The position numbers and the translations under genes are program-made. From IMG/VR virus record IMGVR_UViG_3300037452_000123, positions 1 to 40,812 of that record: DNA of 40,812 bases. The stretch is one strand, 5' to 3'. Source of the DNA: a virus. The notes under the pieces were generated by a model. That model was not told where the DNA came from. It saw only the letters and a program-made list of their open reading frames with translations, and made no database searches. This document shows positions 1 through 40,812 of this stretch, piece by piece. Numbering within the stretch: the stretch's first letter is position 1; each line of letters begins with the position of its first letter.

Positions 1-2
1 CT

Positions 3-425
3 AATACCGCAGAAACTTGGCAATTAATTGACGAGGCAAATGGTAGATCAACGCCTGGAATGGACAGAGAACTGTTTGCTTTTTGCGAGCGCCTAATCGC
101 CCTTGCCCGCCAGCAGCAGGACCGCGCACCACGGGGAGAGGCGGTTGCGTGCTATGCCTCTTACGGCGAAGATGGAAACTTGTTCATACCACCAGACGGC
201 AACGGTCACTTCCCTCTGTACGGAGCCGCTGCCATTCATCAACTTGAAGAAGAAAACGCGACTCTGCGAAAGGGGCTGAACGCAGCGCGCAACGGACACA
301 GCATCTTAGCGGCATTAGATCGAATGCTCACGGCAGAAAGGAAACTTGCTGAACTTGCCGCCCCCTCCGCTTCTATAGATGCAGCGCAGCCAGCGCAATC
401 AATACCACAGGAGGGGCAGCCGTAA
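3..425 (+). CDS. Hypothetical protein, 5' end cut by window edge
   Basis: The reading frame is open from the first bases, so the gene starts outside the window. The same 55 bases recur at 39998-40052, where they follow GGAGGAGGT and ATG-ACT. The native start is therefore almost certainly that ATG, giving a protein of about 142 residues that begins MTNTAETWQLIDEANGRSTP. The first internal Met is at base 60. The middle contains a DGNLFIPPDGNG-like stretch, followed by a charged, helix-prone segment (QLEEENATLRKGLN), probably a short coiled coil. The tail is rich in Ala and Pro. I do not recognise a family. It lies just upstream of the ssDNA-binding protein gene in the early operon, so it is probably an accessory early protein. 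Confidence 0.7.
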   Translation, partial: NTAETWQLIDEANGRSTPGMDRELFAFCERLIALARQQQDRAPRGEAVACYASYGEDGNLFIPPDGNGHFPLYGAAAIHQLEEENATLRKGLNAARNGHSILAALDRMLTAERKLAELAAPSASIDAAQPAQSIPQEGQP

Positions 426-478: not shown

Positions 479-1027
479 ATGAAGATCCAACTGCAAAACG
501 CAAGGCTCGCATTTCCCAAGCTCTTCAAGGCTGAACAGGTCAACGGCGAGGGCAAGCCCGCCTTCTCCTGCGCATTCCTGCTGCACGCCGATGACCCGCA
601 AGTCGATGCAATCAACGACATGATCGAAAAGCTCGCCGAGGAAAAATGGGAGAAGAAGTTCAAACCCATCCTCGCGGCGATCCGCGGCAAGGATCACGTC
701 TGCCTGCACAACGGCGACACCAAGGCCGACCTCGAAGGTTACGCCGGCAATTGGTTCATCAACGCCCGTGCCTACACCAAGCCGCTCATCTTGGACCGCG
801 ACGCGCGCACCATTCTCACCGAAGACAGCGGGCGGCCCTATGGCGGGTGCTACGTGAACGCCAGCATCGAACTGTGGGCGCAAGATAACCAGTGGGGCAA
901 GCGCATCAACGCGACGCTGCGCGGCGTGCAGTACCGGCGAGACGGGGATGCGTTCGCGGGCGGCGCACCGGCTACGATGGATGAGTTTTCTGATCTATCT
1001 GAGCAAGGCGAAACGGACCTTGCGTGA
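479..1027 (+). CDS. Enc34-type ssDNA-binding protein (DUF2815)
   Basis: The 182-residue protein opens MKIQLQNARLAFPKLFKA and continues with GKPAFSCAFLLHADDPQ, the typical start of the DUF2815 family, whose member in phage Enc34 binds single-stranded DNA. It would coat ssDNA at the replication fork. I chose ATG 479, with GGA eight bases upstream. A TTG at 473 in the same frame would add two residues. The gene overlaps the polymerase gene by a GTGA junction, so the two are probably translationally coupled. Family membership is recognised from sequence. The role in this phage is inferred from the family and from its place beside the polymerase. Confidence 0.85.
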   Translation: MKIQLQNARLAFPKLFKAEQVNGEGKPAFSCAFLLHADDPQVDAINDMIEKLAEEKWEKKFKPILAAIRGKDHVCLHNGDTKADLEGYAGNWFINARAYTKPLILDRDARTILTEDSGRPYGGCYVNASIELWAQDNQWGKRINATLRGVQYRRDGDAFAGGAPATMDEFSDLSEQGETDLA

Positions 1028-3057
1028 AGCTTTTTTGTGACGTAGAAACGCGGTGTCGACTGAACTTGAAAACAGTCAGCACCGCGCGCTATCTCGAAGA
1101 GGTCGAGATGGCGCTGCTCACTTGGGCGGTCGATGAGGGTCCGGTGCAGTTGGAAATTACGCTGGGCGGTATCGGTGCATCCGGCCACTTCGATGCAGCG
1201 ATGGCGCAAGCCGACACCATCGTTGCGCACAATTCAATGTTCGACCGCGGCGTGCTCACCAAATATGGATACGAAGCGTCTTTAGAAAAATGGTACTGCA
1301 CGCTCGCGCAAGCACACCGGCACGGCCTGCCTGGTGCGTTGGACAAGCTCTGCGATATCTTCAACGTTCCTGCCGACCAGGCCAAGCTCAAAGCCGGCCA
1401 CGCGGCGATGCTGCTCTTTTGCAAGCCGCAAAAAGATGGCACGTGGGCGACTGCTGAAACGCACCCCGACCAGTGGGCGGTCTACCTCGAGTACGCCAAA
1501 CTCGATATCTCGGCGATGCGCGCGGTCCACAAGCTGATGCCGCGTTGGAACGATGGTATCGAAGCCCCTGTTCGGCTCCTTGACCAGCGCATCAACGAGC
1601 GCGGGTTCTGTGTCGACACTGAGCTCGCATCCAAGGCCGTCACGCAGCTGGCACGGGTCAAGAAGGACCTGGCCGAACAAACTGCATTCGCTACTGGGGG
1701 TGCTGTTAGTTCAGCCACCCAGGTGGACAAGCTCATCAAATACATCCTGGCTGAGTACGGTGTTGACCTCCCCAACTGCCAGGCCGATACGTTGGAGCGC
1801 CGGCTACAGGACCACGATCTACCCGATCCCGTGCGCGAGTTACTCGCCCTGCGCCAGGCGAGCTCCAAGACTTCCACGGGCAAGTACGCAGCGCTCTTGA
1901 AATCCGTGAGCTCGGACGGCCGGCTGCGCCAGACCATGACCTACTGCGGGGCGCCGCGCACGGGCCGATGGGCCGGCAAAGTCTTCCAGCCGCACAACCT
2001 CCCAAGACGGACCATGCCGGCCGCCGAGGTCGAATTTGGCATCGCCAGCATCCTGGCTGACACGGTAGACCTGGTTATGGAGCAATCCGTTCCCGGAGTG
2101 TGCAGCAACGCGATACGCGGTTGCGTGGTGGCTGCGCCAGGTAAGCGGCTGCTGGTAGCCGACCTCTCCAATATCGAAGGCCGGGTGGTCGCCTGGCTCG
2201 CCGGGGAAGCGTGGAAGTTGGACGCGTTCCGTGCCTACGATGCGGGCACCGGACCGGATCTGTACCGGCTGGCTTTCTCCAAGGCTTTCGCGGCCCTGAT
2301 CGCTAGCGTCACGGACGAGCAGCGTCAGATCGGCAAAGTCATGGAGCTCATGCTGGGCTTTGGCGGCGGGGTGGGTGCGTTCTTGACGGGGGCCGCTACC
2401 TACGGGATCGATCTGGATGTGATGGCCGGCAAAGCCTGGCCTTCGATACCGCTCAAGGTAAAGTTGGACGCGCAAGCCTGGTGGGAGAAGAGCGTGCAGG
2501 CCAAGAAGACCTATGGGCTAACCCAACAGACCTTTTGCGCCTGTGACGGGCTAAAGCGTCTGTGGCGCCTGGCGCACCCCAAGATCGAAGCGTATTGGTA
2601 TGCGGTCGAGGATGCGGTGCGCATGGCCATGGAAACGCAAAAGACGCAAGTCGTGGGGCAAGTCAAGTTCATCCGCGCCGGCTCCTGGCTCAAGATCACG
2701 CTGCCCAGCGGTCGGGAACTTTGCTATCCGGGGCTGCAGTGGCGTGGCGACAAGATCACCTATATGGGGCAGAGCCCGTACACCCGCACCTGGGGTCGGA
2801 TCGCTACCTATGGAGGCAAGCTCGTCGAAAATATCACCCAGGCCGTGGCGCGTGACGTGCTCGCCGCGGGGATGCTGCTTGCCGATCGCCAGGGCTACGA
2901 AATAGTTTTGCATGTGCACGACGAAATTGTGGCTGAGGCAGGGGAAGATAAAACACTGCAAGGTCTTATCGATTGTTTAGTTACCAGCAGGCGATGGACC
3001 GAGGGGCTACCGCTGGCGGCTAAGGGATTTGAATGCACACGCTACAAGAAAGATTAG
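1024..3057 (+). CDS. Family A DNA polymerase with 3'-5' exonuclease
   Basis: The 677-residue protein has an N-terminal DnaQ/Klenow-like exonuclease: Exo I DVET (D6, E8), Exo II HNSMFDR (D74) and Exo III YAKLD (Y157, D161). The C-terminal polymerase domain has motif A VADLSNIEGR (D380), a motif B helix around RQIGKVMELMLGFGGG, and motif C HVHDE (D633). All the expected catalytic carboxylates are present, so it should be an active proofreading replicase. Start is GTG 1024, overlapping the stop of the ssDNA-binding gene. It lacks the 5'-nuclease domain of bacterial Pol I, as is normal in phages of this type. It would act with the ssDNA-binding protein, the SNF2-like helicase and the primase/VirE protein at 34.1-36.4 kb. 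Confidence 0.95.
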   Translation: MKLFCDVETRCRLNLKTVSTARYLEEVEMALLTWAVDEGPVQLEITLGGIGASGHFDAAMAQADTIVAHNSMFDRGVLTKYGYEASLEKWYCTLAQAHRHGLPGALDKLCDIFNVPADQAKLKAGHAAMLLFCKPQKDGTWATAETHPDQWAVYLEYAKLDISAMRAVHKLMPRWNDGIEAPVRLLDQRINERGFCVDTELASKAVTQLARVKKDLAEQTAFATGGAVSSATQVDKLIKYILAEYGVDLPNCQADTLERRLQDHDLPDPVRELLALRQASSKTSTGKYAALLKSVSSDGRLRQTMTYCGAPRTGRWAGKVFQPHNLPRRTMPAAEVEFGIASILADTVDLVMEQSVPGVCSNAIRGCVVAAPGKRLLVADLSNIEGRVVAWLAGEAWKLDAFRAYDAGTGPDLYRLAFSKAFAALIASVTDEQRQIGKVMELMLGFGGGVGAFLTGAATYGIDLDVMAGKAWPSIPLKVKLDAQAWWEKSVQAKKTYGLTQQTFCACDGLKRLWRLAHPKIEAYWYAVEDAVRMAMETQKTQVVGQVKFIRAGSWLKITLPSGRELCYPGLQWRGDKITYMGQSPYTRTWGRIATYGGKLVENITQAVARDVLAAGMLLADRQGYEIVLHVHDEIVAEAGEDKTLQGLIDCLVTSRRWTEGLPLAAKGFECTRYKKD

Positions 3058-5175: not shown

Positions 5176-5466
5176 ATGGGCACGCTTGAACGTGTTATCG
5201 AGAACTACGCCAACCAGCAAATCGAAAAAGCTGGTGGTTGGATGCTCAAATTCGTCTCCCCTGGCGAACGCGGGGTGCCCGATGACATAGCGCTGTGGAG
5301 CATAGGCGATTTTGATTTTATAGAATTCAAGCAAGAAGACGCTAAGCCCACACCGCAGCAAGAAGAGATTCACACCGAACTCCGCCGCCGAGGGTTCGCC
5401 GTCGTCATTTTGCGCTCTAAGGTGCAAGTCGATGAATATGTCCGAAATCGCACCGCGCGAATTTAG
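5176..5466 (+). CDS. VRR-NUC domain nuclease
   Basis: The 96-residue single-domain protein matches the VRR-NUC fold of the PD-(D/E)XK superfamily: an N-terminal helix with ENYANQQIEKAGGWMLKF, the conserved GVPDDI (catalytic Asp region), the FIEFK strand (E-x-K) and QQEEIHTELRRRG helix followed by AVVILRS. Stand-alone VRR-NUC proteins in phages cut branched or flap DNA and commonly lie next to an SNF2-like helicase, as here, where the genes overlap by 35 bases. A role in resolving replication or recombination intermediates is inferred from family and neighbour. Confidence 0.9.
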   Translation: MGTLERVIENYANQQIEKAGGWMLKFVSPGERGVPDDIALWSIGDFDFIEFKQEDAKPTPQQEEIHTELRRRGFAVVILRSKVQVDEYVRNRTARI

Positions 5467-6814
5467 GCTCTACCAGCCCCCCGCAATCCAATTCCTGCAC
5501 GAGCACGCGCGTTGCAATCTTTTTTCGGGTATGGGTACAGGCAAAACTGTGATGGTGCTCACCTACCTGTCGGGGATCATGGAACTTCCCGCCCTGGTCA
5601 TCGCCCCCTTGCGCGTAGCGCGCAGCGTATGGCCCGAAGAGGTCAAGGCCTGGCCGCACCTGGCCGGGCTGCGCGTTCAGCCGGTGTTGGGTACGCCTGA
5701 GCAGCGCGCGGCGTGCCTGGCGCAGGATGCCGAGGTCTACACGATCAATTACGATAATCTGCCGTGGCTGGTCGAGCACACAGGTGAAGGCGGTTGGTTC
5801 TTTCGCACCGTGGTGGCCGATGAGAGCACGCGTTTGAAGGGCTTCCGGCTCACCCAAGGCGGCAAGCGTGCGCAGGCCCTGGCCCGCATCACCCACTCCA
5901 AGGTGCACTGCTGGGTGAACTTGTCCGGCTTGCCGGCCCCCAACGGCCTGACGGACTTATGGGGGCAGCAGTGGTTCGTGGATGGCGGTGCGGCGCTAGG
6001 CCGATCGTTCTCTGGTTTTCAGAATCGGTGGTTCCAACGCGCGCCAGGCGGCGGGCAGTATGCGCCGATCGTGCCCCTGGCGCACGCGCAAACGCAGATC
6101 GAAGCGGCGATGCGGCCCACCACGCTCTCGATACTGGCGCGCGACTACTTCAACATTGCGGAGCCGATCGTCACCGATGTGTGGGTGGACCTGCCCTTAC
6201 CTGCGCGTGTGCAGTACAAGCGCATGGCCAAGGATTTTTTCACTCAGCTGGAGAAGGGCGTGGTGTCGGCGGCCACCAGCGCGGTCAAATCGAACAAGCT
6301 ACTGCAGATGGCCAACGGCGCGGCCTATCACGAAGATGGTTCTTACAGCTGGGTGCACGATGAGAAAATCGAGGCTTTGCGATCCGTTGTGGAGGAGGCA
6401 GCGGGGGCTCCCGTGTTCGTCGCCTACCAATTCCGTTCCGATCTGGAGCGTATTCAAAAAGCCTTCCCGCAGGTTCGCGTATTGGACCGCACGGACAAAA
6501 AGGTTGAGAAAGATTGGAACGCTGGCCGTGTACCGCTACTGTTGGCCCATCCCAAATCCGCTGGGCACGGGTTGAACTTGCAACACGGCGGCAACATCCT
6601 GGTCTACTTCGGGGAGTCGTGGAATCTGGAAGATACTGAGCAGATTCTTGAACGAATAGGTCCGGTGCGCCAGATGCAGGCGGGGCTCAACCGACCGGTG
6701 TTCGTTTATCACTTGATGGCGCGTAACACGCTCGATACTGCGGTGCGCGCGCGGCGCGATTCGAAGATGAGCGTTGTGGAGTCCTTGCTGCAGGCGATGA
6801 AGGAGGAGCTATGA
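5432..6814 (+). CDS. SNF2-like superfamily 2 DNA helicase/translocase
   Basis: The 460-residue protein has a Walker A loop SGMGTGKT (K38), motif Ia-like VIAPLRVARSVW, a DEAH-like box VADEST (D130, E131) with RLKG following, motif III-like WVNLSGLPAPN, and a motif V/VI region AHPKSAGHGLNLQ with ERIGPVRQMQ. This is the compact phage SNF2 ATPase that typically follows a VRR-NUC gene. It probably remodels or unwinds DNA in replication or recombination. ATG 5432 is followed by a second in-frame ATG at 5438; neither has a clear SD, consistent with coupling to the overlapping nuclease gene. Confidence 0.9.
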   Translation: MNMSEIAPREFRLYQPPAIQFLHEHARCNLFSGMGTGKTVMVLTYLSGIMELPALVIAPLRVARSVWPEEVKAWPHLAGLRVQPVLGTPEQRAACLAQDAEVYTINYDNLPWLVEHTGEGGWFFRTVVADESTRLKGFRLTQGGKRAQALARITHSKVHCWVNLSGLPAPNGLTDLWGQQWFVDGGAALGRSFSGFQNRWFQRAPGGGQYAPIVPLAHAQTQIEAAMRPTTLSILARDYFNIAEPIVTDVWVDLPLPARVQYKRMAKDFFTQLEKGVVSAATSAVKSNKLLQMANGAAYHEDGSYSWVHDEKIEALRSVVEEAAGAPVFVAYQFRSDLERIQKAFPQVRVLDRTDKKVEKDWNAGRVPLLLAHPKSAGHGLNLQHGGNILVYFGESWNLEDTEQILERIGPVRQMQAGLNRPVFVYHLMARNTLDTAVRARRDSKMSVVESLLQAMKEEL

Positions 6815-32774: not shown

Positions 32775-32814
32775 AACGCAAGATTCTTGCGTTCTTGCGC
32801 AAGAATCTTGCGTT
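32775..32814. repeat. 17-bp perfect inverted repeat
   Basis: AACGCAAGATTCTTGCG and CGCAAGAATCTTGCGTT flank TTCTTG. Each arm contains its own small palindrome CAAGA-W-TCTTG, so the site can be read as two operator half-sets or as one large cruciform. It is the longest perfect dyad I found in the window. Confidence 0.65.
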
Positions 32815-34108: not shown

Positions 34109-36445
34109 TTATTTTGACCAATATTTGAAGCTTTTCCGATCATCGTCCTTACCTACGTGTTTTTGAAAACCAAGCCTTCGCAATATATTCGCTACGCGCA
34201 CCTGATTTTGTCTACCCACCGTCCGAGGATCGTAGCCAAGCGCGTTCTGCAAAACCCCTTCCAAAGTGATTTTTTCGGAAGTTTCCGTGACGAATTTGCG
34301 CACTGCATCAAAGCCGATTTCCTCCATTTCGAAGGTCTCGTGCTCGTCCTGTGCCAAACGCTCCGCGTCAGCCCAAGCGACCCCTCCCTGCTCAAAAAGG
34401 TACGCGCCTTCAGCCCAAAGTTGATCCCGATCCCGCGCGATGCGCTCTGCTTCCCCCCACTGCACCGTCACCGGTAGCCAACGGCGGTTGCCCGTGGCGT
34501 CCGACAGGAAGTCGTCCCGGTTGGTCGATCCGATCATCAGGAAGCGCCGCGGCACGGTTATCGCGATTTCCTCATACTTCGGGGTCCACCGATCCGCGCG
34601 CTGGGTCACCCAGGCGTTGACCGCTTCGTGGTCTCGTGCGCCAAGGCCGCGCAACTCCACCAATTCGGCCACCAGGCAGCCGCGCAGGCGCCGGGATAGC
34701 TCTGCATCCCGTTCGGCCAGATCGAGCGTCGTGAACGCTTCTGGTACCGGTGCCAGGGCTTCTATTGCGCTGCTCTTCCTCTTACCCTGCTGCGACGAAT
34801 GCAGGATCACCACCATATCCGCTTTGACCCCTGGCACCAGCGCGCGGCCGGCCAAGGCGGTCCACAAGTAGGTGGACACTGCGCGCGAGTAAGCACTCGG
34901 CGCCGCGGCAAATTGAGTTTCCAGGAAGGACTCAACCCGGCTTACCCCATCCCACACCAACCCCCGCACCCAATCCGCAGCTGAGTCGAACGCATTCTCC
35001 TTACCCACCAGCGCCACGGCATCGCGCAGCAATTCCCGTCCCATCGGCTCGAAACCGCGACGTTCTAGCTCCACCCGCGTGCGCAGGTAATCCTCATTGC
35101 GCCAAGGCACTAACACCCCGGCCAGCTGCCCAGCGCCACCCCCGTTCCCGCTCCACGGCGCCCACATGAGCTCCTGGCGGAAGTGATCCCAGGCGATCCG
35201 GCGCCACCAGCCGGGTGTCTGCAGCGCGCGCACCAGGTTCGAAGCGGTGGCCTGCCAACCCTTCTTGGATCGGGTCAGCCCGCTCCCGGGCCCCCCAGCG
35301 CCCGCCCAAGCCGCTGTAGGGTCCGCGTCATCACTGCCCAGGCCCAGGACTCCATTACCGCTCCGAGCAGAGCCCCCGTCAACACGGCCGCCGCTATCAG
35401 CAACCACAACGGCAAAGTCAGACGCGAAGCTTTGCTCATACCCCACTGCTTCAAGAAACGCTGCATCACTCCTCCCTGCGCAGTGCGCGTGCAAGCATTC
35501 GAAATGGCCCTGCTCATACCCGCCGGTACCGGCCAGGAACCAGGCTGTTGCGCTGGCCCCCGTATCTACGGTGTGGGTGTCTTCCCAGGGACAGGCAACG
35601 AAGAGCCGTCGCTCGTCTCGGCTGCCTTCGACGACCCACCCCCGGCGCTCGAGCCATATTCCGACTGGATCGGCACGGGTATGCTCGCTGGCGCGAAGCC
35701 CGCGCTGTGGTCCGCTGGTATCGAGGTCTGACCCCCGATCGTGTCCGTTGGCAACGGCCACAACCGGTCGAACCACTCCTCGTCGTGCGGGTTCATTCTC
35801 AAATGCTCGGCTCTGAGCAATGCCCGGTACGCCAAACTCTCGCTCGAGCTCGGCCCAGGCTGACTCGAATCGCTCGGCGCTGATGTTTGGGAATTTGTTT
35901 GGTAGCCCTCCTTCCCAAAAATATCGACCACCGGCAGGGTGCGTTCCGGCGGCGACGAACTGCTGGCCATCGGCAAGGAATTCGATTGCGCCTCCCCCGC
36001 GAACAGCGATGACGCGCTTTTTCCAATTGCCAGGCTCCAACTCAAATGCAAGCCCGACTCGGGCACTGCCGGGGCGCGCGCGCACAGGTAACACACCGAG
36101 CAGTACACCAAGGCGGGCACGGATCTTTGCGCACCCTCCTGGATTCGAAATATCAAGGTCGAGGAACCGGATAGATCGTGTACGCAGGCAGAATCCGAGG
36201 TCATCGTCTTTACTCCATTTGTCGATCATTGAAGGGTGAACGGCGATTGTCGTCCAGTGCGCAATACCCACGGCCAGGCGCTGCGCGTTGTATTTGCTCG
36301 GCACCTTGCCGATGGTCTTTAACTGGCTCTCCGGTGCTATTTTTGCGTTGGGGTTTGATACAACGGGCAGCATCTCGCCACCCAGCCCCAACCACAGAGA
36401 AAAGTGATTCCACTCCTCGGCCGAGGCCCCGTAGCGTTGCGTCAT
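34109..36445 (-). CDS. Primase-polymerase-like/VirE helicase fusion, 778 aa
   Basis: The N-terminal third resembles the bifunctional primase-polymerase fold: CLRTRSIRFLDLDIS with D96 and D98, and AAGTHPAGGRYFWEG later. A Cys/His element (VACPWEDTH, FECLHAHC) lies in the middle, like those of phage primases. The C-terminal third is a VirE-family ATPase: ILHSSQQGKRKSS is the Walker A position (about residue 550), and RRFLMIGSTNRDDFLSDATG with NRRWLPV is the family signature. The P-loop is unusual, SQQGKRKS instead of GxxGxGKS. It would prime and unwind for the family A polymerase. It is coded opposite to the polymerase operon. Confidence 0.85.
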   Translation of the reverse strand: MTQRYGASAEEWNHFSLWLGLGGEMLPVVSNPNAKIAPESQLKTIGKVPSKYNAQRLAVGIAHWTTIAVHPSMIDKWSKDDDLGFCLRTRSIRFLDLDISNPGGCAKIRARLGVLLGVLPVRARPGSARVGLAFELEPGNWKKRVIAVRGGGAIEFLADGQQFVAAGTHPAGGRYFWEGGLPNKFPNISAERFESAWAELEREFGVPGIAQSRAFENEPARRGVVRPVVAVANGHDRGSDLDTSGPQRGLRASEHTRADPVGIWLERRGWVVEGSRDERRLFVACPWEDTHTVDTGASATAWFLAGTGGYEQGHFECLHAHCAGRSDAAFLEAVGYEQSFASDFAVVVADSGGRVDGGSARSGNGVLGLGSDDADPTAAWAGAGGPGSGLTRSKKGWQATASNLVRALQTPGWWRRIAWDHFRQELMWAPWSGNGGGAGQLAGVLVPWRNEDYLRTRVELERRGFEPMGRELLRDAVALVGKENAFDSAADWVRGLVWDGVSRVESFLETQFAAAPSAYSRAVSTYLWTALAGRALVPGVKADMVVILHSSQQGKRKSSAIEALAPVPEAFTTLDLAERDAELSRRLRGCLVAELVELRGLGARDHEAVNAWVTQRADRWTPKYEEIAITVPRRFLMIGSTNRDDFLSDATGNRRWLPVTVQWGEAERIARDRDQLWAEGAYLFEQGGVAWADAERLAQDEHETFEMEEIGFDAVRKFVTETSEKITLEGVLQNALGYDPRTVGRQNQVRVANILRRLGFQKHVGKDDDRKSFKYWSK

Positions 36446-37252: not shown

Positions 37253-37906
37253 ATGAAGTACGAACTGACCGCCGAGACCAAGGTTGCCTTTGGGGTTACC
37301 TTTCATCGCATCAAAGCGCTGATCGACATTTCGATTTGGGGTGTCGTCAAAGGCGATCTCGGCGGTTGGGTTCAGAAGGTCGAGAATCTTGACCAAGACA
37401 CCAACGCGTGGGTTTCCGGCGACGCGCGGGTTTTCGGCGACGCGCGGGTTTTCGGCGACGCGCGGGTTTCCGGCGACGCGTGGGTTTTCGGCGACGCGCG
37501 GGTTTTCGGCGACGCGCGGGTTTCCGGCGACGCGTGGGTTTTCGGCGACGCGCTGGTTTTCGGCGACGCGCGGGTTTTCGGCGACGCGCGGGTTTCCGGC
37601 GACGCGTGGGTTTTCGGCGACGCGCGGGTTTCCGGCGACGCGCGGGTTTTCGGCGACGCGCGGGTTTCCGGCATGGAAGCACTTTGTGCCTTCGTAGGCT
37701 TTGGTTCCGCCTTCCGACAAACCACCGCCTACCTAGACGCCAAGATGAAAATCCGAGTGTCCTGCGGGTGCTTCACCGGCACGGTGGAAGAATTCCGCGC
37801 GCAGATCATTGAGACGCATGGCAGCGATTCAAAGAACGGCAAGCTCTACCTGGGCATGGTCAATATGATCGAAGTGCGCTTAGGAAATGTGGAGATACCC
37901 AAATGA
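37253..37906 (+). CDS. Left-handed beta-helix hexapeptide-repeat protein, 217 aa
   Basis: The N terminus (MKYELTAETKVAFGVTFHRI, then KGDLGGWVQKVENL) is the conserved cap of a phage family with GDA hexapeptide repeats. Residues 52 to about 141 are 15 units of A-R/W/L-V-F/S-G-D, which should fold as a left-handed parallel beta-helix. The C-terminal part has a small domain (KIRVSCGCFTGTVEEFRAQI). The repeats are 18-bp copies in the DNA. The family's role is unknown to me. It is three bases from the preceding gene and overlaps the next by ATGA. Confidence 0.85.
   Translation: MKYELTAETKVAFGVTFHRIKALIDISIWGVVKGDLGGWVQKVENLDQDTNAWVSGDARVFGDARVFGDARVSGDAWVFGDARVFGDARVSGDAWVFGDALVFGDARVFGDARVSGDAWVFGDARVSGDARVFGDARVSGMEALCAFVGFGSAFRQTTAYLDAKMKIRVSCGCFTGTVEEFRAQIIETHGSDSKNGKLYLGMVNMIEVRLGNVEIPK
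37406..37675 (+). repeat. 18-bp tandem repeats, 15 units
   Basis: Tandem copies of an 18-base unit such as GACGCGCGGGTTTTCGGC, varying mainly at TTTTC/TTTCC and CGCGG/CGTGG. Each unit codes for one hexapeptide of the beta-helix. Variants recur in order, suggesting that blocks of three to four units were duplicated together. Copy number is probably unstable. Confidence 0.9.
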
Positions 37907-38175
37907 GCGAACAAGATCCCTACGTGCCGACCAAGGAGTTCGAGAAGGTCTATCGAATCGGTACGCAATACACCGTCAAGGCAACAGCTAAGCTCGCGGG
38001 GATCTTGCAGACAACGATTCAAGCGCGTTTCGAATGGCGACCGAATTTCCCCGGGTTGAAGTTACTCAGCCAGGTCGAGCGCGGCGACTACATCGCCGCC
38101 AGCCATGATTTTTCCCAATCCATTGCCCGCTACTACGATATCGATGTTGGCGAATTTGAAATAGGTGAAGTATGA
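37903..38175 (+). CDS. Hypothetical protein, 90 aa
   Basis: A soluble protein with KEFEKVYRIGTQYTVKATAK, LQTTIQARFEWRPNFPGLKL and an acidic end (YYDIDVGEFEIGEV). ATGA overlaps link it to both neighbours, the beta-helix gene and the DUF2800 nuclease gene. No family recognised. Confidence 0.65.
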   Translation: MSEQDPYVPTKEFEKVYRIGTQYTVKATAKLAGILQTTIQARFEWRPNFPGLKLLSQVERGDYIAASHDFSQSIARYYDIDVGEFEIGEV

Positions 38176-39515
38176 GCACAGGCCACGCGCAATGCAGCCC
38201 GAGTGGATATGACAGGTGGAGTGTCTGCGCCGGCTCGGTCGCACTCGAAGCCAACGAGCCGGACAGCACCAGCAAGTACGCTGATGAGGGCACCGCGGCG
38301 CACTTCCTGGGGTCCACCTGTTTGACGACAAAAAAGCAACCGGCAGATTTTCTCGGGCGCGAAATCGTTGTCAACAGCAATGGCGCAGCCTTCGCCGATA
38401 TGATTGACGAAGGTAGTGAATTCGAGACAACCGGTGGCACACCGTCCACGTTCGAAGTCAATGATGAGATGGTGCGTGCGATAGCGCTCTACGTGAACAG
38501 CGTGCGCGATCGGGTGGAGCACTTCCGCTTGGCCGGTGCCCTCGAAGTGATCCTGCTGGTGGAGCAACGCCTATCCATCGAACCGATCACCGGCGAGCGC
38601 AACGCTTTCGGCACGTCGGATGCGATCATCATCGCGCGCTTTGCCGAGTATTCGGTGATCGAGTCCGACGATTTGAAATACGGCATGGGTGTGGAGGTCG
38701 ATGCCAAAGAGAACGGCCAGCTGATGATCTATGCGCTGGCTGGCGTTTTAAAATACAACGCGCTGCACGAGTTCCGCGACGTGATCCTGCGCATCCACCA
38801 GCCCCGCCTTTACGATGAGCCCAAGGAGTGGCAGTTACCCCTCGCACAGTTGTACGAGTTCGGCAACCTGGTTGCCGAACGCGCCGGCTTGGCCCTGCAG
38901 ATTTTGAAAGACGGCCCGGCTACCGCGATGGGCCACCTGGTTGCAGGGGATGCGCAATGCAAATTTTGCCGTGCCAAGTACAAGTGCCCCGAGGTCATCA
39001 ACATGGTGCACAAGTCCGTGTTCGGTGACTTTGTACCGGTTGATGAACCAACGCCTGAACCGGTGACTGCGGAGATCTTTACAGGGCCGGCGGTCGAGTT
39101 CGAAGCCCTGCTACCGGTCTTCATGAACCGCGTTTCCCTGATCGAAGATTGGTGCCTGTCGATCCGCGCCAAGGTCGAAGAGTTGCTGCTGGCCGGCAAG
39201 GATGTGACCGGCTACAAGCTCGTGCAAGGGCGCAAGGGCGCGCGCAGCTGGACCGATGAGGAGATGGTGCAGACGAGACTGCTGACCGCTGGCACCCACC
39301 CAGCAGTGTTCTACCGGCCGCGCCAGCTGAGGACGCCCGCCGATCTGGAAAAGGCGCTTGCCAAGACCGCCCCGCAGGCGTGGGAGGCGCTGCAGGGGCT
39401 GATCGAGCAAAAAGAGGGCAAACCTTCGGTCGCGCCGGCGTCGGATAAGCGCGCTGCCTGGTCGCCCGTCACCACGTCAGAATTCAAGTCGTTCGATTCG
39501 GAGGGGTTGGCGTGA
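38172..39515 (+). CDS. DUF2800 PD-(D/E)XK nuclease
   Basis: The 447-residue protein starts with CSPSGYDRWSVCAGSVALE, the usual DUF2800 opening, and ADEGTAAHFLG. The RecB/Cas4-like nuclease core is GTSDAIII (D), VIESDDLKYGMGVEVDA (D and K) and NGQLMIYAL (Q-x-x-x-Y). A Cys cluster follows (AQCKFCRAKYKCPE), suggesting an iron-sulfur or zinc site as in Cas4-like proteins. The C-terminal part is helical. In related phages this gene precedes the DUF2815 ssDNA-binding gene; here only small genes and the window ends lie between. It probably processes recombination or replication ends. Confidence 0.9.
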   Translation: MSTGHAQCSPSGYDRWSVCAGSVALEANEPDSTSKYADEGTAAHFLGSTCLTTKKQPADFLGREIVVNSNGAAFADMIDEGSEFETTGGTPSTFEVNDEMVRAIALYVNSVRDRVEHFRLAGALEVILLVEQRLSIEPITGERNAFGTSDAIIIARFAEYSVIESDDLKYGMGVEVDAKENGQLMIYALAGVLKYNALHEFRDVILRIHQPRLYDEPKEWQLPLAQLYEFGNLVAERAGLALQILKDGPATAMGHLVAGDAQCKFCRAKYKCPEVINMVHKSVFGDFVPVDEPTPEPVTAEIFTGPAVEFEALLPVFMNRVSLIEDWCLSIRAKVEELLLAGKDVTGYKLVQGRKGARSWTDEEMVQTRLLTAGTHPAVFYRPRQLRTPADLEKALAKTAPQAWEALQGLIEQKEGKPSVAPASDKRAAWSPVTTSEFKSFDSEGLA

Positions 39516-39516
39516 A

Positions 39517-39536
39517 TTCCCCAATACCTGGAGAGC
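39517..39536 (+). repeat. Intergenic repeat motif, copy 1
   Basis: TTCCCCAATACCTGGAGAGC follows the DUF2800 stop codon by one base. It differs by one base from copies 2 and 3. It contains the SD-like GGAGAGC, although the next gene starts about 30 bases later with a separate AAGGAG. Confidence 0.75.
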
Positions 39537-39567
39537 GGGCGGAGGTAGTAGCAAAGGAGATGAAGAA

Positions 39568-39747
39568 ATGAGCACGCACTCGCTCCACGAGGCCGATCCG
39601 CTTACCGAGCGGCTTGTTGCAGCTTGGATGGGTGTTCTCGATCAACCAAGGTTTGATAACCTGACTGTCGCCCAAATTCTCGGCGTGATTGAGTTGTGCA
39701 AGTATGCAATTATTCACCAGACACCGGTTCACAAGAACAAGCCATGA
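39568..39747 (+). CDS. Small hypothetical protein, 59 aa
   Basis: ATG 39568 has AAGGAG upstream. The product starts MSTHSLHEADPLTERLVAAW and is helical (DNLTVAQILGVIELCKYAII), ending HQTPVHKNKP. The stop lies inside the repeated 30-bp element at 39741-39770. No family recognised. Confidence 0.6.
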   Translation: MSTHSLHEADPLTERLVAAWMGVLDQPRFDNLTVAQILGVIELCKYAIIHQTPVHKNKP

Positions 39748-39770
39748 CTTCCCCAATACCCGGAGAGCAA
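39741..39770 (+). repeat. Intergenic repeat motif, copy 2
   Basis: This 30-bp element, with core TTCCCCAATACCCGGAGAGC, is identical to 40050-40079. It includes the end of one gene (CCATGA) and supplies the SD GGAGAGC for GTG 39773. Confidence 0.85.
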
Positions 39771-40052
39771 AAGTGAGCGAAGATCCGAAAGACGAAGCGC
39801 TGCGGCTGGCGAAAGGATATCGCGTGCGTTGCCAATGCGCGTTTGGAGAGATTCGTGAAAACGTCGTTTGGGCGGACTGCGGGGACGTGGTTCTGGTTTG
39901 CTCGTCAGAGCAGTTTGAGCATCTTCAAGCGGGGCATCAATCTCCTATGCCCATAGGATTCCGAAAAAGAGATGTCTCTCCAATGGAGGAGGTATGACTA
40001 ATACCGCAGAAACTTGGCAATTAATTGACGAGGCAAATGGTAGATCAACGCC
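39752..40052 (+). repeat. 301-bp segment repeated at the window ends
   Basis: Bases 39752-39850 recur at 40714-40812 (the end of the window) and bases 39998-40052 recur at 1-55 (the start). If the map is circular, a second copy spans the junction, with its middle 147 bases missing from the window. The repeat contains the small gene 39773-39997 and the first 55 bases of the next. Confidence 0.6.
39773..39997 (+). CDS. Small hypothetical protein, 74 aa
   Basis: GTG 39773 is four bases after GGAGAGC. The product reads (M)SEDPKDEALRLAKGYRVR then CQCAFGEIRENVVWADCGDV, VLVCSSEQFEHLQAGHQSPM: small, with four Cys that could bind metal. It ends with an ATGA overlap into a truncated gene copy. Its first 26 codons are repeated at the right end of the window. 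No family recognised. Confidence 0.65.
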   Translation: MSEDPKDEALRLAKGYRVRCQCAFGEIRENVVWADCGDVVLVCSSEQFEHLQAGHQSPMPIGFRKRDVSPMEEV

Positions 40053-40056
40053 ATGA
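39994..40056 (+). pseudogene. Truncated copy of the gene at the window start
   Basis: ATG 39994 with GGAGGAGG upstream opens MTNTAETWQLIDEANGRSTP and stops where repeat copy 3 begins. The same sequence from codon 2 opens the gene at 3-425, which continues for about 120 further residues. This copy has therefore lost all but its first 20 codons, apparently by recombination at the repeat. Confidence 0.65.
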
Positions 40057-40079
40057 CTTCCCCAATACCCGGAGAGCAA
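40050..40079 (+). repeat. Intergenic repeat motif, copy 3
   Basis: Identical to 39741-39770. It truncates the ORF at 39994 and supplies the SD (GGAGAGC, four bases before GTG 40082) of the methyltransferase-like gene. Confidence 0.85.
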
Positions 40080-40081
40080 CC

Positions 40082-40738
40082 GTGATAGCTGCGTTATTCG
40101 TCGAAACTGACGGATGCTATTTCGGTCTTCCGAACGTCGATCCATGGGACGAGAAACGCGACGCTAGGCTATACGCTGGTCCGTATCCGGTCATCGCGCA
40201 TCCGCCGTGCCAGCGCTGGGGCCGATTCTGGCATGGCAGCACGCGCAAGCCGCATCAATTCAAGCTCGGGGATGATGGCGGGTGTTTTAACAAGGCGATA
40301 CGCGCGGTTCAGGAATACGGGGGAGTGCTCGAACATCCGGCCGATTCGCATGCCTGGGACGCGTTCCATTTGCCAAAGCCGAAACGCTTCGCCGGATGGC
40401 TGGAAATTACAGGCTGTGTCCTGGTTAAAGCGTCTGGAAAACAGGCTACAGCCTGGACTTGTTACGTCGAGCAGGGCCATTACGGCCACGCTAGCCGCAA
40501 GCCAACATGGTTGTTCTACGTCGGCCGCCAGGCGCCCCCGGCGCTTAACTGGACGCGCGGCGAGCAACGCCTGCACCCTGTCGCGCTTACCAAGCATGGC
40601 TATGAGAAAGCCAGGCGCATCGGCATGACCGCAATGGTCGGCGGCAAGGACAAGACGAAGATCCGCAACGCAACGCCGATACCGTTCCGCGATCTGCTGA
40701 TTTCGATTGTGAACCCAATACCCGGAGAGCAAAAGTGA
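40082..40738 (+). CDS. C5 cytosine methyltransferase-like protein, 218 aa
   Basis: GTG 40082 follows repeat copy 3. The protein has FVETDGCYFGLPNVDPWDEK, then YPVIAHPPCQRWGRFWHGS, where PPCQ is the catalytic loop motif of DNA cytosine-5 methyltransferases. YGGVLEHPADSHAWDAF resembles the following ENV-like motif, and ATPIPFRDLLISIV the C-terminal motif X region. The N-terminal SAM motif F-x-G-x-G is not obvious, so it may be a short or divergent phage variant. Methylation could protect phage DNA from restriction. The C terminus is encoded by repeat copy 4 (NPIPGEQK). Confidence 0.65.
   Translation: MIAALFVETDGCYFGLPNVDPWDEKRDARLYAGPYPVIAHPPCQRWGRFWHGSTRKPHQFKLGDDGGCFNKAIRAVQEYGGVLEHPADSHAWDAFHLPKPKRFAGWLEITGCVLVKASGKQATAWTCYVEQGHYGHASRKPTWLFYVGRQAPPALNWTRGEQRLHPVALTKHGYEKARRIGMTAMVGGKDKTKIRNATPIPFRDLLISIVNPIPGEQK
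40714..40730 (+). repeat. Intergenic repeat motif, copy 4 (core)
   Basis: CCCAATACCCGGAGAGC recurs here, but within the last codons of the methyltransferase-like gene. It gives the SD for GTG 40735, whose gene is a second copy of the one at 39773. Confidence 0.8.
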
Positions 40739-40812
40739 GCGAAGATCCGAAAGACGAAGCGCTGCGGCTGGCGAAAGGATATCGCGTGCGTTGCCAATGC
40801 GCGTTTGGAGAG
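40735..40812 (+). CDS. Partial second copy of the 74-aa gene
   Basis: The first 26 codons are identical to those of 39773-39997 and are cut by the window end. GTG 40735 overlaps the preceding stop (GTGA). If the map is circular the gene continues as in the first copy and leads into the gene at the window start. Confidence 0.6.
   Translation, partial: MSEDPKDEALRLAKGYRVRCQCAFGE

Follow-up and report, generated by a model that had tools for sequence, protein, structure and literature searches.

At the end of the window, the whole 40,812-nucleotide stretch of viral DNA analyzed here, four copies of a short SD-bearing repeat lie between a DUF2800 exonuclease gene and, once the contig is closed, the gene of an Enc34-type ssDNA-binding protein (SSB). 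The arrangement is best explained, with somewhat better than even confidence, by start-associated leader repeats at this exonuclease-SSB site combined with the gain or loss of a cassette and a recent partial duplication. There is good evidence that one gene, referred to here as gene C, is a repeat-bounded insertion. A preliminary description of this region as an array of exchangeable cassettes is partly supported, in that one gene shows evidence of being a cassette and the array as a whole does not. The proposed structure is probable and the proposed mechanism plausible, and a wide cassette system is unsupported; the leader repeat is real but apparently local and private to this lineage.

The 17-mer CCCCAATACCCGGAGAG is present exactly at 39751 and 40060 and with one mismatch each at 39519 and 40713; allowing up to three mismatches there are four matches in 40.8 kb, against 0.04 expected from shuffled sequences, all within 1.2 kb and none elsewhere. 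The 16-mer CCCAATACCYGGAGAG starts at 39520, 39752, 40061 and 40714, in every case on the positive strand and at a gene junction, which confirms both the number of copies and the placement given in the preliminary description. The full 20-mer motif is exact in copies 2 and 3 only, copy 1 having T for C and copy 4 lacking TTC, and copies 2 (39741-39770) and 3 (40050-40079) are identical over 30 bp, as had been noted. Copies 2, 3 and 4 carry GGAGAG 5 nt upstream of a GTG start, the three cases in which the repeat had been said to supply the SD; for copy 1, the downstream gene carries a separate SD nearer to its start.

Copies 1 to 3 form tiny frames that overlap, by ATGA or GTGA, the stop of the preceding gene and the start of the following one, all on the positive strand. 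Copy 1 (39512..39571; core 39519-39535, with CCT for CCC) encodes the putative 19-codon frame MNSPIPGERAEVVAKEMKK, which overlaps the exonuclease stop and the start of gene 1. Copy 2 (39744..39776; core 39751-39767), the "empty-site" version, encodes the putative frame MTSPIPGEQK, and copy 3 (40053..40085; core 40060-40076) encodes the putative MTSPIPGEQP and provides the SD for gene C. The codons of copy 4 continue the reading frame of gene C and make up its tail, NPIPGEQK; together with the start of a second copy of gene B1 (GTG at 40735), copy 4 occupies 40714..40812 on the positive strand. These features point to a translation-start leader, composed of an SD and a tiny overlapping frame and present in several copies between the exonuclease and SSB genes, with a presumed role in translation. 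A promoter scan for sigma-70-like sites on the positive strand of 38172-40812 found none, other promoter types being outside the scan. Stem-loop z-scores for copies 1 to 4 were 2.0, -0.5, -0.9 and -1.6, indicating no clear stem-loop, and Rfam (38000-40812) and tRNA scans gave no matches.

A possible, if doubtful, alternative is that the repeat is a start-associated regulatory element, kept by selection as a translation or protein-binding site, with recombination only incidental to it. The common orientation of all copies at gene starts with an SD fits such an element, and repeats of this kind are described in Cluster K mycobacteriophages (PMC3203893) and Citrobacter phage Mordin (PMC4611695). 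However, a regulatory repeat is harder to reconcile with only four copies confined to 1.2 kb of a 40.8 kb window, and copies 2 and 4 are not independent of each other since they share a downstream gene, B1.

Both contig ends lie inside the array, as indicated by their overlaps: the last 99 contig bases are identical to 39752-39850, up to the last base, and the first 55 are identical to 39998-40052. The large repeat here is not the 17-mer but a 301-bp block (39752..40052, positive strand) that comprises copy 2, gene B1 (first copy 39773..39997, positive strand; 74 aa, no known family) and 20 codons of a gene X, and whose first 99 and last 55 bases are those that recur at the contig end and start, respectively. 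The preliminary description of a gene cut short after 20 codons is accurate for this frame (39994..40056, positive strand), which stops at the junction with copy 3; however, the same 20 codons (X20) run on in frame into gene X at the contig start, which is whole except for its first four bases (1..425, positive strand, frame 3-425). From the overlaps, the block has two ways in, from gene 1 and from gene C, and two ways out, into copy 3 with gene C and into the whole of X. Read as a single path, the block is present twice, around gene C, and closing the contig through it would give the order gene1-[B1-X20]-C-[B1-X]-SSB in a circle of 40,959 bases; leaving out the 962-bp loop would reduce it to 39,997. 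The duplication was missed in the preliminary description because the contig breaks there.

The array is the spot where the sequence assembly broke. Where repeats break contigs, metaSPAdes and MEGAHIT are described as leaving end sequences of maximum-k length, and the metaSPAdes k list of the authors of COBRA was 21,33,55,77,99 (PMC10914622). Both overlap lengths, 99 and 55, are in this list, suggesting that the contig was assembled with it; a maximum k of 99 would predict an overlap of 99 at the contig start as well, and the 55 bases seen there count against the explanation favored here. Repeat arrays at contig ends need checking against assembler overlaps.

The neighborhood of the array lends independent support to the closure. 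On its left are the exonuclease gene (38172..39515, positive strand; Pfam PF10926, E 7e-79; PHROG 69 exonuclease) and gene 1 (39568..39747, positive strand; 59 aa, no known family), and in the closed contig its right neighbors are the SSB gene (479..1027, positive strand; PF10991, E 3e-38; PHROG 112) and the DNA polymerase A gene (1024..3057, positive strand). Among 82 loci with a related SSB, which were not de-duplicated and include Bordetella phage BPP-1 twice, the exonuclease is directly upstream of the SSB in 79, the other three being without an exonuclease match. The gap between alignment ends in those 79 loci is 3-434 bp (median 38), compared with 1,925 bp in the window after closure and 963 bp without the loop. 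The order in BPP-1 is exonuclease, one small gene, SSB, one small gene and polymerase. Gene 1, B1 and X have no relatives in the loci searched, B1 and X have none among 50,697 phage records, and locus searches with single proteins returned one locus for DUF2800 and none for B1. Elsewhere, the window contains approximately 21 tandem 18-bp units at 37350-37727, in a frame (37253-37906) for a YdcK-type beta-solenoid repeat protein, a perfect 17-bp inverted repeat with a 6-bp spacer at 32775-32814 (AACGCAAGATTCTTGCG / CGCAAGAATCTTGCGTT) that may be an operator or terminator, an SNF2-type helicase frame (5432-6814) and a VapE/Prim-Pol primase frame (34109-36445).

Copy 2 is a hybrid: its left flank, GCCATGACTTC, is that of copy 3, and its right flank, AAGTGAGCG, with the B1 gene that follows, is that of copy 4, the shared core being 19 bp. 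Recombination between copies 3 and 4 that removed gene C together with one leader would leave such a product; in the opposite direction, copy 2 would represent the empty site that gene C filled. Starting at GCC, the X20/copy 3 junction has the same sequence as the gene 1/copy 2 junction, and the only occurrences of ATGACTTC in the window are those at copies 2 and 3, which together suggest that a molecule with gene 1 adjoining the leader and gene C probably existed. Gene C would have entered, or may be able to leave, at one leader; a filled site would then be bracketed by two leaders (19 identical bp), and an empty site would keep one. In a second event, codon 20 of X may have been joined to the leader before gene C at the 3-bp GCC match, which would produce the order given above with its 301-bp direct repeats, and these in turn would have broken the assembly at both ends. 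Homologous recombination between the 301-bp repeats could then drop or amplify the 962-bp unit. The order and mechanism of these events, and variation within the population, are inferred. The earlier proposal of integrase-free recombination between the repeat copies remains the best reading for gene C, but the 301-bp block would be a better substrate than a repeat of 17-30 bp.

The loop could instead represent a mixture of strains rather than one genome, which weighs against the favored explanation. In such a population, some genomes would carry gene1-B1-X and others gene C, none would carry two copies of B1, and the assembler would have threaded both versions into one contig. In line with such a mixture, each end of the contig terminates within the repeat, and one site is represented in both its empty and its filled version. 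However, the contig has the X20/copy 3 junction in its interior, and this junction could not be made from gene1-B1-X and gene1-C-B1-X alone, so that some molecule would have to carry it unless it is a chimera, and a mixture of this kind is considered rather unlikely.

Gene C (40082..40738, positive strand) encodes a 218 aa member of phrog_12600 (E 6e-62 against the profile, positions 3-191 of 203), with its conserved part reaching approximately residue 210, ahead of the copy 4 tail, and it has no Pfam match. An AlphaFold2 model of the protein is of intermediate confidence (mean pLDDT 69, pTM 0.74). In a PDB search with this model the first 16 matches were cytosine-C5 DNA methyltransferase entries, all of them weak (best E 0.03, TM approximately 0.3), and matches to a viral structure library were likewise weak. 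The protein contains PPCQ and EHP stretches, which we take to resemble C5-methyltransferase motifs, and any assignment of gene C as a cytosine-C5 DNA methyltransferase would be tentative. A search for phrog_12600 in six host genomes gave no match (0/6) and was uninformative because control genomes gave no match either.

Relatives of gene C are encoded by 466 IMG/VR candidates, the best 80 of which were kept; a second query contributed 80 more loci, on contigs partly shared with the first set, and of 167 gene-C loci, 118 were used, the remainder having a missing flank or one identical to another's. In three loci, a phrog_12600 member is found between SD-bearing direct repeats, identical at 30/32 bp in L117, 33/33 bp in L162 and 20/20 bp in L272, and none of these repeats resembles the window leader. 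The L162 repeat has a terminator-like hairpin and an SD, with a third similar copy at 1314. Using the gene downstream of it as query returned L162 itself and three relatives: L347 and L348, in which an SSB tail, a single leader and the same downstream gene are present and gene C is absent, and L349, which has one leader with no SSB before it. The single leader in L347 and L348, both lacking gene C, supports the view that in L162 the leader was doubled when gene C was inserted, although the upstream SSB of L347 was recognized from its C-terminal tail alone, with no tblastn match, which counts against the favored explanation.

Across loci, the association of gene C with flanking repeats is suggestive. 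Own flanks sharing at least 11 nt were found in 8/80 gene-C loci, the window included, compared with 0.46 expected from crossed loci. With the window excluded here and from the scores below, such shared flanks were present at 7/79 gene-C loci, compared with 17/928 of the remaining genes in these loci (p 0.0016). A mismatch-tolerant score of at least 11 was obtained for 8/73 gene-C loci of the first set and 27/1008 other genes (p 0.0016), but this excess was not repeated in the truly new gene-C loci (2/45 against 27/1008, p 0.35). Scores of at least 14 with an SD and both copies at starts, a criterion chosen after the cases had been seen, were found for 3/118 gene-C loci and 4/1008 other genes (p 0.029). 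Leader doubling is present around other genes too, and a survey of SD-bearing 14-mer repeats identified 27 strands of 237 loci, compared with nine when the sequences were read backwards. The excess at gene C is weak and weighs against the favored explanation. Among the loci surveyed, L077 has another start-associated repeat, three consecutive gene starts on its reverse strand (8893, 9168 and 9416) following GCAAGAGGTGAAGCATGA or a near-match, and frames in L271 (3906-4553) and L329 (1377-1694) lie between long direct repeats (scores 51 and 34) and are candidate repeat-bounded phage genes.

A more far-reaching reading is that phrog_12600 is an itinerant phage gene with a dedicated process, independent of integrase, that would repeatedly place it immediately before the start of another gene and duplicate that gene's leader (19-33 bp, SD included) in a manner resembling target-site duplication. 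This is considered unlikely; if true, newcomer and old gene would both keep a ribosome-binding site.

Searches for the repeat itself in other genomes point to a local element. The 16-mer occurs at 22 IMG/VR loci, 11 of which share one other leader (..CGGGAATAA..TATGGAGGA) and 11 of which have other flanks, and the single match per locus amid other flanks indicates no second array. In L006, L008-L012, L015, L018 and L022-L024, a leader CCCAATACCCGGAGAGCGGGAATAA..ATCTATGGAGGA precedes a gene start and contains the window 16-mer, with CGGG directly after it as it is in copy 1, perhaps by chance. A 22-mer of the repeat had no matches in GTDB genomes. The core had nine matches with up to three mismatches in L025-L188, within the 0-24 obtained with 20 shuffled cores and with no same-strand array, and none with up to two mismatches in L189-L261. 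A search for the PIPGE start peptide found none with an ATGA overlap outside the window's own loci. As an array, the repeat is in no other genome searched, in collections that may omit near relatives of the window's record, and this result counts against the favored explanation.

These searches also bear on the idea of a dedicated, integrase-free cassette system that exchanges many small genes through the repeat. The position of the repeats and the hybrid copy 2 would be expected of such a system, but with the array seen in one genome and gene 1, B1 and X lacking relatives in the searched loci, it is very unlikely. The suggestion of exchangeable cassettes with a ready ribosome-binding site is supported for gene C, through the hybrid copy 2 and the L117, L162 and L272 sites, and does not extend to the whole array, much of which is one 301-bp duplication. 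Most improbable is a pure assembly artefact, with the duplicated block absent from every genome, an outcome that the preliminary description had named as refuting: the contig ends do fall in the block, with overlap lengths that are common k values, but copies 1, 2 and 3 have different flanks and, like the X20/copy 3 junction, are internal to the contig.

On the favored explanation of leader repeats with cassette gain and loss, the window holds empty and filled forms of one site in one contig, and L162 with its empty-site relatives, at a different leader, is a second, independent case. How a phage can insert small genes into a tight operon and still leave the following gene active is poorly understood, and a duplicated leader would be a simple solution. 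The array is thus a modest illustration of how small phage genes may come and go with no integrase involved.

Promoter early stem-loops (PeSLs) of T4-type phages were reportedly described by Arbiol et al. 2010 and Comeau et al. 2014. PeSLs are said to mediate gene shuffling (PMC4503421, PMC3950731), and like the window repeat they are repeated stretches at junctions of genes, in their case said to shuffle small genes; the window repeat differs in that its coding strand lacks a promoter-like site and the repeat shows no pronounced stem-loop. The L117, L162 and L272 sites have the same gene family between SD-bearing direct repeats, but their repeat sequences are unrelated to that of the window, and the L162 leader differs further in its hairpin. 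Narrow literature searches found no description of leader doubling around an inserted phage gene. Citrobacter phage Mordin has, upstream of eight genes, a 26-bp start-associated repeat of unknown role that ends in CTGGAGAATCTA (PMC4611695). Both repeats are start-linked with an SD core, but the Mordin genes are those of a Felix O1-like myophage, and the Mordin repeat has no match in the window with up to three mismatches.

Cluster K mycobacteriophages offer a close comparison in their start-associated sequences (SAS), repeats of unknown role that are linked to gene starts and contain an SD core (PMC3203893). The sequence is different: the 13-bp SAS consensus GGGATAGGAGCCC has two window matches with up to two deviations, against 1.07 expected, and none in the array. 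SAS are also present in 11-19 copies over the non-structural genes, compared with four in 1.2 kb here, and the available text of that account reports no link to gene insertion (PMC3203893). Copies 2 to 4 nevertheless share the SAS position near a start, single orientation and SD core, and copy 1 does so in part, because the next gene has its own SD. Like SAS, the window repeat is short, asymmetric, mostly in one orientation, beside start codons, built on an SD core and associated with non-structural genes only (PMC3203893).
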